A stretch of 64,000 bases of DNA from Phycisphaerae bacterium (GTDB taxonomy: Bacteria; Planctomycetota; Phycisphaerae; SM23-33), in assembly GCA_011050235.1 (NCBI GenBank), contig DRGC01000034.1, positions 1 through 64,000 of the forward strand, written 5' to 3'. Positions 6,499-11,127 of the stretch are shown here, piece after piece. A program made the translations under genes and the position numbers. Positions within the stretch are counted from its first letter, which is position 1. Each line of letters starts with the position of its first letter. The notes beneath the pieces are model-generated. The model saw only the letters and a program-made list of their open reading frames with translations. It did not search any database and was not told where the DNA came from.

Positions 6499-8448
6499 CT
6501 AGTCGGCCTGATCGAACATGCCCTGAGCGGCGGCGGCCACATCCTCCGGCGACAGGTGCACCATCTTGAGGATCTCTTCGGGCGTCTTGGCGCTCTTGGG
6601 AACGCGGTGGACAACCTTCGTCTCGACGCACACGCCCAAATCGCTCTTGGCCGCGGCAGCGGTGATCTCATCGGCCACGCCGCCGAGATAGTTGTCCTCG
6701 ATCACCAGGATCTGCCCGCGGCAATCGTCGCCGATCTTCAGAATCTCATCCACCTTCAGGGGCAGGCAGTACGCGTCGACCAGCGACGCCGACAGGCCGT
6801 ATTGGTCTTCGAGAATCTGACGCGCTTCGATCGCGATGTGCACCATGTATCCGCTGGCGACGATGAGCACGTCTTCGCCGTCGACCAGGTGCTTGAAGCC
6901 GCCCAACTCGAAGGTCTCGTCGTCGTCATACAGGAACGCCACGTCCGGCCGATGCGTTCGCATGTAGCACATGCCGTCGGTATTCGCCATCAGCTCGGTC
7001 AGCTTAAAGGCGCTGACCGCATCGGACGGCAGGAACAGCCGGATGCTCGGGGCCCCGTCGACGCGCGTCGAATGGGCGAACGCCCGCATAAACGCCAGGT
7101 CGGGCAGGGCCATCTGGCTGGGCCCGTCGGCCGCCAGAGATACGCCCGCGTGCGATCCGACCAGCTTGACATTGGCGTTGGTGATCGCGGCCATTTCGAT
7201 CTGATCGCAGGCCCGAAGCAGAAACTTGCTGAACGTGGAGGCAAAGGCGATTCGTCCGCCCGCCGACAGCCCCGTCGCCGCCGAAACCATGTTCTGCTCG
7301 GCGATTCGGGCCTCGAAAAAGCGCTCGGGATATTTCTTGGCGAAGAAATCGGCAAAGGTGGAGTTCTTGACGTCGCCATCGAGCGCGACGATGCGCGGGT
7401 CGCTGCCCAGCCCAGCCAACGCCGCCCCGTAGGCCCGCCGCGTCGCGAGCTTTCGCTGCTCGTAGGCCTCCGCCAGTCCCACCGCCGCAAGCGCCTCGGC
7501 CAGCGAACCGGCTGACAACTCGCCCGATCCGGCGGGCTCGACCGCGGCGACCTGCTGCAGGTCGGCCACATCGCGATCGGCCAACTCAGCCACGCCCAAC
7601 TCGTCGGCCTTGGCGTTCAGATCGGCGAACGCGGCGTCCAGTTGCTCGGTCTTGAGCGGCTTGCCGTGATAGCCCTGGCCCTGAAGTTCATTGACGCCCC
7701 AGCCCTTGATCGTCTTGGCGACCACGGCGATGGGCTTGTCGCCGGCCTCGGCCGTCAGGGCTTCGAAGATCTCGTCCCAGTTGTGCCCGTCGATCACCTT
7801 GACGTCCATGCCGAACGCCGTCAGCTTCTCCGTCAGGCGCTCGGGCGACTGCTGCGGCGAGACGGCGTCGCTCTGCCCCTGGCCGTTGCAGCTGAAGATC
7901 GTCCGAACCGCCAGCAGGTTGTAATCGACGATGAAGTCCACGGCCTCCCAGACCTGCCCCTCGCGACTTTCCCCGTCGCCGAGGATGCAGAAAATCTTTC
8001 GATCGCTTTCGTCCAGCCGGGCCGCACACGCCAGACCGGCCGCCACCGACAATCCCTGGCCCAGCGATCCTGTGGCGGCATCGAAGAACGGAAAGCCCAC
8101 CGCCGGGTTCGGATGCCCGTCCAGAACGCTGTCGGCCTCCCGGAGGGTCAAGGCATCTTCAAACCGCAACTGCGACGGCTGGTCAGCCGAACCCACCACG
8201 CCACCGAGGTCGCAGTACGCCGCGTAGACGGCGGGCACGGCATGGCCTTCGGACAGCACCAGCCGGTCGCTGCCGGTGTTCCAGGGGTTCTTCGGATCGT
8301 ATCGCATCACGCGGTACATCAGCGCCGCGGTCAGATGCAGAATGGACAGCGAACTGGACGGATGGCCGCTGCCGGCTTCCGTGCACATGCGCACGATCTG
8401 CTTGCCAAGCTCGATGACCTTGCGGTCCAGGTCCTTGTATTCAGCCAT
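6499..8448 (-). CDS. tkt: Transketolase
   Basis: A 649-aa protein, close to the usual transketolase length. It has the N-terminal thiamine-diphosphate domain (GSGHPSSSLS; LGDGESREGQVWEA with the GDG start of the ThDP-binding motif), a middle pyrimidine-binding domain (RIAEQNMVSAATGLSAGG, containing the catalytic Glu) and a C-terminal domain. It interconverts pentose-phosphate sugars and supplies erythrose 4-phosphate for the shikimate pathway. A GGGGAG ribosome-binding site precedes the ATG. It converges on trpG with no obvious U-tract terminator between them. The subunit is fused rather than split into two genes. Confidence 0.95.
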   Translation of the reverse strand: MAEYKDLDRKVIELGKQIVRMCTEAGSGHPSSSLSILHLTAALMYRVMRYDPKNPWNTGSDRLVLSEGHAVPAVYAAYCDLGGVVGSADQPSQLRFEDALTLREADSVLDGHPNPAVGFPFFDAATGSLGQGLSVAAGLACAARLDESDRKIFCILGDGESREGQVWEAVDFIVDYNLLAVRTIFSCNGQGQSDAVSPQQSPERLTEKLTAFGMDVKVIDGHNWDEIFEALTAEAGDKPIAVVAKTIKGWGVNELQGQGYHGKPLKTEQLDAAFADLNAKADELGVAELADRDVADLQQVAAVEPAGSGELSAGSLAEALAAVGLAEAYEQRKLATRRAYGAALAGLGSDPRIVALDGDVKNSTFADFFAKKYPERFFEARIAEQNMVSAATGLSAGGRIAFASTFSKFLLRACDQIEMAAITNANVKLVGSHAGVSLAADGPSQMALPDLAFMRAFAHSTRVDGAPSIRLFLPSDAVSAFKLTELMANTDGMCYMRTHRPDVAFLYDDDETFELGGFKHLVDGEDVLIVASGYMVHIAIEARQILEDQYGLSASLVDAYCLPLKVDEILKIGDDCRGQILVIEDNYLGGVADEITAAAAKSDLGVCVETKVVHRVPKSAKTPEEILKMVHLSPEDVAAAAQGMFDQAD

Positions 8449-8803: not shown

Positions 8804-8832
8804 TTGACAGCGCCGAGGCCGGGTGCTATACT
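8804..8832 (+). promoter_or_regulatory. Consensus sigma-70 promoter of the small RNA
   Basis: TTGACA (8804-8809, perfect), exactly 17 bases, then TATACT (8827-8832, five of six). This is the best promoter in the window. The predicted start is near 8839. Confidence 0.85.
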
Positions 8833-8838
8833 CCTGGG

Positions 8839-8938
8839 TTCCCGACGAACAATGCCGCAGGGGCATAGGCGATATTCGGCTGTTTGCTTCAGCCGTGGCG
8901 ACCTTCGATTCACCGCCGTGTGGATCGAAGGTTTTTTT
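8839..8938 (+). ncRNA. Candidate small RNA of about 100 nt (or attenuated leader)
   Basis: The region between the consensus promoter and an intrinsic terminator folds into three consecutive hairpins: ATGCC/GGCAT (8852-8856 with 8862-8866, 5-nt loop), CGGCTG/CAGCCG (8877-8882 with 8890-8895, 7-nt loop) and the terminator stem (8901-8909 with 8924-8932). It has none of the SRP RNA hallmark tetraloop/asymmetric-loop sequence and no tRNA- or tmRNA-like ends. The HAD gene begins 110 bases beyond the terminator. The transcript may be an independent small RNA or a leader in which termination controls that gene. An open frame runs through the terminator from 8852 but does not look like a real protein. 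Confidence 0.7.
8901..8938 (+). terminator. Intrinsic terminator of the small RNA
   Basis: A perfect 9-bp stem (ACCTTCGAT 8901-8909 with ATCGAAGGT 8924-8932), a 14-base loop, and a run of seven T residues (8932-8938). This is a textbook Rho-independent terminator and the clearest in the window. Confidence 0.85.
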
Positions 8939-9048
8939 GTCTGCGGCGTGCGCCGAGAAGCATCGCTCTTCCCTGGCGACCAACAGCAACGTTGCAAAGA
9001 ACGCCGACGGTCAGTATCCTTTCACGGCCTCTTTCCGTGCGAGATCCC

Positions 9049-9789
9049 ATGAGTCAGTCGGTGCGCGGCATTCTGTTCGATCTGGGCGATACGCTCCTGG
9101 ACTTTGGCGACGTGGACGTCAACAGGGAGTTCGAGGAAGGCACGCGCCTGGCCTACGACTACCTTCGTAAGCTCGGTCATCCTCTTCCCCCGTTCGGACG
9201 CTACCATCGCACTCAGCTCTGGGCCGTGCGGTGGTATTACTTCCTCAGCCATCTGCGCGGGCGGGATTTCAATTCGCTGGACCTGATCGGCGGGCTCAGC
9301 AACCGCATGGGCCACGATCTCACGCACGAGCAGCTCATCGATCTTGCCTCGTTGTGGTACGAACCCGTCCGCCGGCGGGCAACCATGGAACCAGGCACGC
9401 TCGATATGCTCGAACAGTTCACCCAGCAAGGTGTGAAACTCGGCCTCCTGTCCAACACCTTCATTCCATCGGAAGTGTTGGACCGTCACCTCCAGCAGGT
9501 GGGCCTGCTGGAGTTCCTGCCGGTCCGGATCTACTCGTGCCTGTCCGAGTACCGCAAGCCGCATCCGAGCATCTTCGCCGAGGCGGCAACCGCCATTGAT
9601 CTGCCTGCCGAGTCGCTTTTGTTTGTCGGCGATTCGCTCAAGGCCGACGTCGCCGGCGCCAATCGGGCCGGCATGATCTCGGTGCTCAAGGACCCCACCG
9701 GGCGACGCAAACACTGGCGGATCACCCCCCGTCACCGGATTTGTCGGCTGACCGATCTGCCCAGCGTCCTGGGCCAGTACATGTCCTAG
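9049..9789 (+). CDS. HAD-superfamily hydrolase
   Basis: A 246-aa protein from the ATG at 9049; the frame extends upstream without a better start. All four HAD motifs are visible: motif I FDLGDTLLD (nucleophile Asp near residue 11), motif II LLSNTF, motif III Lys in YRKPHPSIF, and motif IV FVGDSLKADVAGA. A helical cap lies between motifs I and II, as in subfamily IA. Enzymes of this group are usually small-molecule phosphatases, such as phosphoglycolate-phosphatase-like or nucleotidase-like. The substrate cannot be read from sequence. It lies directly downstream of the candidate small RNA, which may regulate it. Confidence 0.88.
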   Translation: MSQSVRGILFDLGDTLLDFGDVDVNREFEEGTRLAYDYLRKLGHPLPPFGRYHRTQLWAVRWYYFLSHLRGRDFNSLDLIGGLSNRMGHDLTHEQLIDLASLWYEPVRRRATMEPGTLDMLEQFTQQGVKLGLLSNTFIPSEVLDRHLQQVGLLEFLPVRIYSCLSEYRKPHPSIFAEAATAIDLPAESLLFVGDSLKADVAGANRAGMISVLKDPTGRRKHWRITPRHRICRLTDLPSVLGQYMS

Positions 9790-9900
9790 CGCAAACGTCG
9801 CGCAGGCCACATCCGCAAAGAGAGAGTTGATCTCGATCGCCCGGGCGGGCCTTCGTCGCCGCCGGAGGTGAAGAGCGCTCAGGCGCCGATGGTGGCGTTA

Positions 9901-9953
9901 GATGAGGATGCTGGCATTAGATGAGGATGCTGGCATTAGATGAGGATGCTGGC
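9901..9953. repeat. 19-bp tandem repeat, about 2.8 copies
   Basis: The unit GATGAGGATGCTGGCATTA occurs at 9901-9919 and 9920-9938, followed by a partial third copy from 9939. Read on the minus strand it covers the last codons and stop of the 33-aa gene and then repeats that ending, so slippage there would re-create the same C-terminus and stop. Confidence 0.85.
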
Positions 9954-10037
9954 TGCCAGAATCAACACGGCAGCCCCCGCCGCGAAAACAACCAGTTCTG
10001 CAAAGCCAGCCAAGATGCCGTAGGTCCTCTGACTCAT
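9936..10037 (-). CDS. Small single-span membrane protein (33 aa)
   Basis: The ATG at 10037 follows an AAGGAG site seven bases upstream. The product has a short polar start (MSQRTYG) and one long hydrophobic helix rich in Ala, Val, Leu and Ile, ending SILI. The frame is open upstream to 10154, but the extension is polar and lacks a ribosome-binding site. The stop falls inside the 19-bp tandem repeat. No homologue is recognised; a small membrane peptide is the simplest reading. It stands alone between a HAD gene and pyrF. Confidence 0.55.
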   Translation of the reverse strand: MSQRTYGILAGFAELVVFAAGAAVLILAASILI

Positions 10038-10195
10038 CGTAACACTCCTTGCCAATTTCAACTGGAGTTGTCCTACTATTACATCGGACAGAACGGTGAG
10101 ATTTCTTGAGGTCATTCCAGGCCAAGGTTGAACTCTTATCCCTGTAACTATCAATGGTTACGAGAATCTTGAGAGCGGGCCCGCGGAGGGGGGTT

Positions 10196-11074
10196 CTAGA
10201 GGCCCACGGCTGCGGCCAGATCGGCGGCAAACTCTCTGGCAGCCTCGCCGACCGCATCGCGCCAGGGCCGATCGGCGTAGCGCTGGTCCCTGAAGGCGTA
10301 GATCACAGACCGGCTGGCGTTGACGATCGCCCCGGCGCCCTCGGAGCTAAAAGAGGCCGCGCAATCCGCCGCCGTCGCCCCCTGAGCGCCGTAACCGGGC
10401 ACGAGAAAGATCTGTCGGTCCATGATTTTGCGCAGTGCTCGGGCCTCATCCGGCCAGGTCGCCCCCACAACAGCTCCGACGCAACTGTACCCGCGCTGGC
10501 CCACCGTCACATCTGCGCCGAGGGCGGCCACCATGTCGGCTACGTGCTCGAAGAGTTTCTTGCCCGACGTGTCGGTGACGTCCTGGAGCGCCGCAGCCGA
10601 CGGATTGGACGTTCGCACCAGAATGAATACCCCCCTGCCGTTGGCGCAGGCCGCATCGACAAAGGGCTGCACTCCGTCAGAGCCAAAGTACCCATTGACG
10701 GTCACGGCATCAGGAGCGTCCTCACCGGCCAGATGCCCAGCCGCATACGCCTCGGCCGTCGAACCGATATCGCCCCGCTTGACGTCCCCGATGACGATCA
10801 GGCCCAGCTCGCGAGCTTCCCGCACGAGCCTGAAGTACAGATCCACCCCTCCGGCGCCGTGCAACTCGAAGTACGCCGACTGGATCTTCACCGCCGCCAC
10901 ACTCGGGGCAACGACTTGAAGGACCTCCCGGCAGAACGTTTCGATCCCCGCCAGCGGCGCTGCACGGCGCAGCTCGTCCGGCAGGCGATCGACCACGGGA
11001 TCCAGCCCGACGCAGACGGGCGAGCGTTTGCGTTCGATCGCAGCCAGCAGTCTGTCGGCAAAATGATCGGCCAT
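10196..11074 (-). CDS. pyrF: Orotidine 5'-phosphate decarboxylase
   Basis: 292 aa from the ATG at 11074, which has an AAGGA site seven bases upstream and begins the conserved MADHFADRL block. It belongs to the longer type-2 OMP decarboxylase group: VGLDP near residue 20, KIQSAYFE, and the catalytic loop GDVKRGDIGSTA with the Asp-Lys-Asp array. LVRTSNPSA and YGAQGATAAD complete the barrel and phosphate site. It carries out the last step of de novo UMP synthesis. The gene is monocistronic with its own promoter, which overlaps a possible opposite-strand -10 for the DUF167 gene. Confidence 0.95.
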   Translation of the reverse strand: MADHFADRLLAAIERKRSPVCVGLDPVVDRLPDELRRAAPLAGIETFCREVLQVVAPSVAAVKIQSAYFELHGAGGVDLYFRLVREARELGLIVIGDVKRGDIGSTAEAYAAGHLAGEDAPDAVTVNGYFGSDGVQPFVDAACANGRGVFILVRTSNPSAAALQDVTDTSGKKLFEHVADMVAALGADVTVGQRGYSCVGAVVGATWPDEARALRKIMDRQIFLVPGYGAQGATAADCAASFSSEGAGAIVNASRSVIYAFRDQRYADRPWRDAVGEAAREFAADLAAAVGL

Positions 11075-11098
11075 CGCTAGTCCTTCAGGGCTGTCGTG

Positions 11099-11127
11099 TT
11101 TATACTCGCCCAGCATAATGCGAGCAA
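11099..11127 (-). promoter_or_regulatory. Predicted pyrF promoter
   Basis: On the minus strand TTGCTC (11127-11122), a 17-base spacer and TATAAA (11104-11099). A plus-strand TATACT (11101-11106) overlaps the same bases, so the intergenic region may fire in both directions, towards pyrF and the DUF167 gene. Confidence 0.6.

Follow-up and report, generated by a model that had tools for sequence, protein, structure and literature searches.

Is the segment at positions 8804–8938, with its strong promoter and intrinsic terminator, a gene for a small RNA in its own right, or does it control the gene behind it? The segment lies in the window, by which we mean the whole 64,000-nt stretch of Phycisphaerae DNA analysed here, and the first-pass annotation had left both possibilities open, proposing either an undescribed small RNA of about 100 nt or termination control of the downstream HAD hydrolase gene. 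We conclude that the segment is probably an independent gene encoding a predicted small RNA of about 100 nt, which belongs to an undescribed Phycisphaerae family and most likely acts in trans. This conclusion rests on computation, namely conservation, covariation, a recurring promoter and terminator, single copy number, restriction to one class, and changing neighbours. The features of the locus and its flanking genes are collected in Table 1.

Table 1. Features of the small-RNA locus and its neighbours (positions in the window).
Feature	Position	Strand	Remarks
Transketolase gene, divergent upstream neighbour	6499..8448	-	Not part of the RNA gene
-35 element TTGACA	8804..8809	+	Near-consensus promoter also at most homologous loci
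-10 element TATACT	8827..8832	+	17-base spacer to TTGACA; TG precedes TATACT
Predicted small RNA, ~100 nt	8839..8938	+	Start site inferred from the promoter
Optional 5' hairpin AUGCC-GCAGG-GGCAU	8852..8866	+	Weak; outside the class-wide core
Class-wide conserved core	8867..8937	+	Covariance models R1, 75.8 bits (R1 training set contains the window sequence itself), and R2, 59.3 bits
Core hairpin CGGCUG-UUUGCUU-CAGCCG, pyrimidine-rich loop	8877..8895	+	Helix 1: 93% of cells paired
Invariant GUGGC between the two hairpins	8895..8899	+	From alignments; its G closes the first stem
Terminator hairpin, 14 pairs	8900..8933	+	Helix 2: compensatory changes in 12/13 pairs
T7 run of the intrinsic terminator	8932..8938	+	Read from sequence
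Possible separate weak HAD-gene promoter TTGCAA-17-TATCCT, 8/12	8992..9020	+	5/100 shuffles as good; suggestive
HAD-superfamily hydrolase gene, downstream neighbour	9049..9789	+	Not part of the RNA gene

The signals described in the first-pass annotation are present in the sequence. The TTGACA, 17-base spacer, and TATACT occupy 8804–8832 and agree with the consensus at 11 of 12 positions, the terminator hairpin runs into seven T, and the HAD start codon at 9049 lies 110 nt past the last of them. The promoter had been called the strongest in the window, and it is indeed the top-scoring promoter-like site within the scanned bases 1–60000. The terminator, folded as a hairpin of 34 nt, had an energy of -21.7 kcal/mol (z -5.8), and the whole predicted transcript also folded better than its shuffled versions (z -3.2 and -2.9). 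All three of the hairpins that had been claimed can be drawn, but only the last two are supported by comparison; counterparts of the first (8852–8866), differing in sequence, occur mainly in the window's own family, f1, and in the minimum-energy fold its GCCGC pairs with the GUGGC linker, rather than AUGCC with GGCAU. Taken singly, a promoter or a terminator of this kind is mildly unusual in 20 kb, where 6 promoter-like sites were found versus 2.8 in shuffled sequence, and 21 terminator-like sites versus 13. The signals are nevertheless far above chance, because the full set of promoter, core, and terminator reappears in more than 100 other genomes.

A blastn search of 60 relatives returned five matches at E <0.01, and a sixth match (E 0.013), from another family of Phycisphaerae, proved to be a homologue too. 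Common to all six homologues were CGGCUG..AGCCGUGGC and the terminator, with a near-consensus promoter upstream. Covariance model R1, built from these six sequences, found further loci across the class; the loci were extracted along with flanks of up to 4 kb in either direction and re-aligned, and 101 aligned matches served to build a second model, R2. R2 detected the RNA at E ≤ 0.001, nearly always in single copy, in at least 193 of 397 Phycisphaerae genomes, a lower bound in that 12 candidates were scored per genome. Several families of the class (e.g., f14) gave no match, and the RNA is widespread but not universal in Phycisphaerae; among the genomes without a match, about half of those sampled, some have lost the RNA, and in others it has diverged or was missed by the filters. 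At the homologous loci, the promoter scored a mean of 10.1/12 versus 6.9 in shuffles, and the predicted RNA was about 108 nt long across the RNA family (quartiles, 95–116).

When 392 genomes drawn across the phylum were searched, all matches above 26 bits fell in Phycisphaerae, and no convincing homologue was found in the other classes. Matches of 20–25 bits outside the class were to tRNA, coding sequence, or bare hairpins, and the core was absent from them on inspection. A pattern search of GTDB genomes hit at least 117 records, titled for the most part Phycisphaerae, Phycisphaerales, or Planctomycetota. Among the records that carry the RNA were metagenome-assembled genome contigs titled Alphaproteobacteria, Blastopirellula marina, and Kuenenia (JANQQE010000014.1, DYLR01000059.1, and CAMDDF010000018.1); these titles are probably binning or naming errors, the contigs being identical in length to contigs of genomes G057, G267, and G178, which are placed in Phycisphaerae.

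The core common to the RNA family consists of CGGCU, a pyrimidine-rich loop, and AGCCG, followed by an invariant UGGC linker and by CUUCCGG..CCGGAAG-U6-7. Invariant or nearly so are GGC(U)..GCCGUGGC and the CUUCCGG/CCUCCGG within the terminator stem, and the first core loop is pyrimidine-rich. The 5' part of the RNA varies even inside families, the first 30–65 nt being free to vary. Among 99 distinct sequences, standard pairs filled 95.4% of cells, and changes on both sides occurred at 15 of the 19 pairs. The first-pass annotation had named compensatory change of the stems in related genomes as the test of its small RNA, and the stems do change in this manner: the covariation score was 0.480, versus 0.166 ± 0.008 for shuffled and 0.06–0.11 for slid alignments, in an alignment fitted to the covariance model, which favours that structure. 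An independent RNAalifold prediction from the same alignment gave 17 pairs in the same two helices. An extra helix between GUGGC and an upstream CGCCAC was seen in f4 and is possible in the window, but the other families lack it. The terminator loops are lineage-specific, with CAGUGGAUGA in f17 and f23, a GGAUnGGAGCC type in f5, f8, f16, and f19, and variable sequence elsewhere. Conserved loops of these two kinds cap an otherwise covarying terminator stem.

Clustering of the ORFs around 121 loci showed that the commonest next gene is pyrK, encoding the dihydroorotate dehydrogenase electron-transfer subunit, often with pyrD behind it. Among 141 loci, about 90 have pyrK as the next gene in the same orientation (84 by automatic count, with five more visible in the tables), and its start lies 30–60 nt past the U-run in most families. 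A HAD hydrolase follows the RNA only in f1, the window's own family (13 loci within 450 nt), a DegT-type aminotransferase follows it in f13 (8 loci), and other genes do so in f19, f16, f5, and f7. Upstream of the RNA there is often a divergent Nudix gene, which is retained where pyrK is gone. In loci L152 and L163, pyrK lies upstream on the opposite strand, and the RNA is retained. The mean promoter score was similar whichever gene comes next (pyrK, 10.3; HAD, 10.9; DegT, 10.5; other, 10.1), and the U-run was likewise the same. Several further genes were observed in these neighbourhoods. In the window, pyrF, encoding orotidine-5'-phosphate decarboxylase (TIGR02127), occupies 10196–11116 on the minus strand, 1.3 kb beyond the RNA, and pyrK does not adjoin there. 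Throughout f4 (e.g., L104), a gene judged by eye to be ffh-like (signal recognition particle protein) lies divergently on the minus strand, about 400–1900 nt upstream. Also in the window, positions 9888–9955 hold a short tandem repeat with a unit of about 19 bases (TTAGATGAGGATGCTGGCA), located at the end of a small minus-strand ORF (9936–10154) without a Pfam match.

The changing neighbours bear directly on the alternative that survives best, in which the RNA is a cis-acting leader: its hairpin would normally stop transcription unless a signal (possibly a pyrimidine nucleotide or a protein) permitted read-through into pyrK-pyrD, or into the HAD gene in f1. The position of a pyrimidine biosynthesis gene so closely behind the U-run in most families favours this explanation, and a variable 5' part suits a leader. 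Furthermore, the upstream genes are often divergent, and the RNA promoter would therefore be the obvious promoter for pyrK. No TTGACA was seen in the gap between the RNA and pyrK in f4, f15, and f17, and pyrK in these families may therefore depend on read-through from the RNA promoter. However, the RNA persists with its promoter and U-run where pyrK does not adjoin, it is present in a single copy per genome, and its placement ahead of functionally related genes is not constant. In 131 loci, neither an excess of pairing between the leader and one or other arm of the terminator (mean z 0.06 in both cases) nor an alternative pairing competing with the terminator was found, and no leader ORF common to the families was found in 119 loci. 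On balance, we regard a cis-acting leader as unlikely.

The gaps ahead of pyrK point the same way in some families. Of the 11 f23 loci, 9 carry TTGACA and an A+T-rich -10-like sequence between the terminator and the pyrK start (0.3 expected), and 4 of the 18 f20 loci carry TTGACA in the gap (0.25 expected); judging from these motifs, pyrK likely has its own promoter in f23 and in some f20 loci. Over all gaps, a second promoter scored 6.85 versus 5.95, with 18 of 91 gaps at p ≤ 0.05, which is modest evidence, and eight of the pyrK or HAD gaps are shorter than 25 nt. In the f23 loci (L102, L136, L159–L161, and others), transcription of pyrK appears to begin from a promoter within the stretch 8–80 nt past the U-run, wedged between the RNA terminator and the ATG. 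Because the pyrK ATG stands about ten bases past the -10-like sequence there, the f23 pyrK mRNA may be leaderless. As a general function of the RNA, cis control of pyrK can be dismissed, but it may operate in some families. The HAD attenuator offered as the alternative in the first-pass annotation fails as a function of the RNA family, in that pyrK follows in most families and other genes in the rest, with HAD following in f1 only and antiterminator pairing not detectable.

A combination of the two roles was also considered, in which an independent small RNA has a terminator that leaks at a fixed rate, providing basal transcription of the next gene, with selection keeping the RNA and pyrK together. 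The conserved neighbourhood with a strong promoter and a strong terminator is consistent with such an arrangement, as are the gaps that are too short for a separate promoter, but the neighbour has been replaced in f1, f13, f19, f16, and f7, and we give the combination only a slim chance. Sequestration of CsrA is more doubtful still. CsrA is encoded in 36 of 40 genomes of the class, and it might be bound by the GGA motifs that f17/f23 and f5, f8, f16, and f19 carry in their terminator loops. Known CsrA sponges carry many GGA sites, whereas there are one or two here, in some families; the loop of the window has none, and such loops are also absent from most of f1, f4, f13, f15, and f20. That the RNA encodes a small peptide conserved at the protein level is scarcely credible: part of f17 has an open frame (..AFFAVAGFRN(I/V)SG*) with a possible start codon, but at 24 of 119 loci no reading frame runs from start to stop across the core, the families share no frame, loop lengths vary by 1–2 nt inside f1, and the stem changes are compensatory. 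The same AVA frame had looked promising for leader-peptide attenuation, which was rejected because the frame is not common to the families.

We then compared the RNA with known RNAs. A scan against Rfam 15 gave no family at or above its gathering threshold, and no tRNA or tmRNA match was found for the window RNA; with its covarying stems, the RNA thus stands as the undescribed small RNA that the first-pass annotation had supposed. The absence of SRP, tmRNA, and 6S hallmarks noted there was also borne out. The SRP RNA (RF00169) lies elsewhere in the same genome (contig C76, 54.4 bits), as does a candidate 6S RNA (RF00013; G000:C48:14610-14766) that scores 38.2 bits, below the Rfam cut-off, which 14 of 40 relatives pass. 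Therefore, the conserved RNA is not a misread housekeeping RNA; it resembles 6S and SRP RNA in being a conserved single-copy small RNA, but has the architecture of neither. The best Rfam match, at chance level, was OmrA-B (RF00079), which likewise has a hairpin followed by a terminator, but it scored 17 bits where the gathering threshold is 40 (E = 0.91), and the two are not homologous on such evidence. Yfr1 of cyanobacteria is a short clade-wide RNA in which two hairpins flank an invariant unpaired segment. The Phycisphaerae RNA is also clade-wide with an invariant segment between two hairpins, but here the segment is about 5 nt long and of another sequence, and Yfr1 gave no match in the Rfam scan. 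With PyrR-binding and other pyrimidine attenuators the RNA shares a terminator ahead of a pyrimidine gene in many loci, but it has no antiterminator pairing and no Rfam match, and it persists without a pyr gene behind it. Like generic intergenic small RNAs, it has its own promoter and intrinsic terminator, a length of about 100 nt, a single copy, and no coding frame; unlike them, it is class-wide in a group without detectable Hfq, conservation falls in its 3' half, terminator included, and it matches no Rfam entry. Hfq was found in none of 40 genomes of the class by a search that detected it in control genomes. In the open-access literature searched, we found no description of such an RNA and no transcript data for Phycisphaerae. 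The RNA is a new family of an already known kind, the bacterial small RNA.

For the stand-alone small RNA, the following mechanism can be proposed. The RNA would be made, presumably in abundance, from its own strong sigma-70-type promoter, and transcription would end at its own intrinsic terminator. The functional part would be the conserved 3' two thirds, comprising the pyrimidine-loop hairpin, the invariant UGGC linker, and the sequence-conserved terminator stem. We infer that the RNA acts in trans because it is independent of its neighbours. A partner would bind the exposed loop and linker together with the stems next to them; it could be a conserved protein, or mRNAs contacted through short base pairing, and this binding would have to work without Hfq. 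Conservation spanning the linker and the adjoining stem bases suggests that sequence and shape may be recognized together; a protein partner would account for this no less well than an antisense seed. Some observations stand against a stand-alone, trans-acting RNA. Many base-pairing small RNAs carry their seed at the 5' end, and the 5' part here is not conserved, unlike a typical 5' seed; in addition, pyrK stands directly behind the RNA in so large a share of the loci, with some gaps below 25 nt, and roughly half of the class genomes sampled yielded no match. Two candidate targets in the same genome were set aside: one is a perfect antisense match of 19 nt within a reading frame of 3.2 kb (L374; BLAST E 0.01), the other a match of 18 nt close to the beginning of a trpC-like ORF (L375; BLAST E 0.56), and both are within chance for a 4-Mb genome.

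A bolder proposal, which we put forward tentatively and consider less probable than not by some way, is that the molecule is a highly expressed global regulatory RNA that defines the Hfq-less Phycisphaerae, its 3' module being a putative site for a planctomycete RNA-binding protein. Small-RNA regulation in planctomycetes is almost unexplored, and a conserved, single-copy, strongly promoted RNA, together with a ready covariance model, offers a first handle on it. The model can be used to annotate Phycisphaerae genomes and to look through existing metatranscriptomes, and the RNA itself can serve as bait for whatever replaces Hfq in these bacteria.
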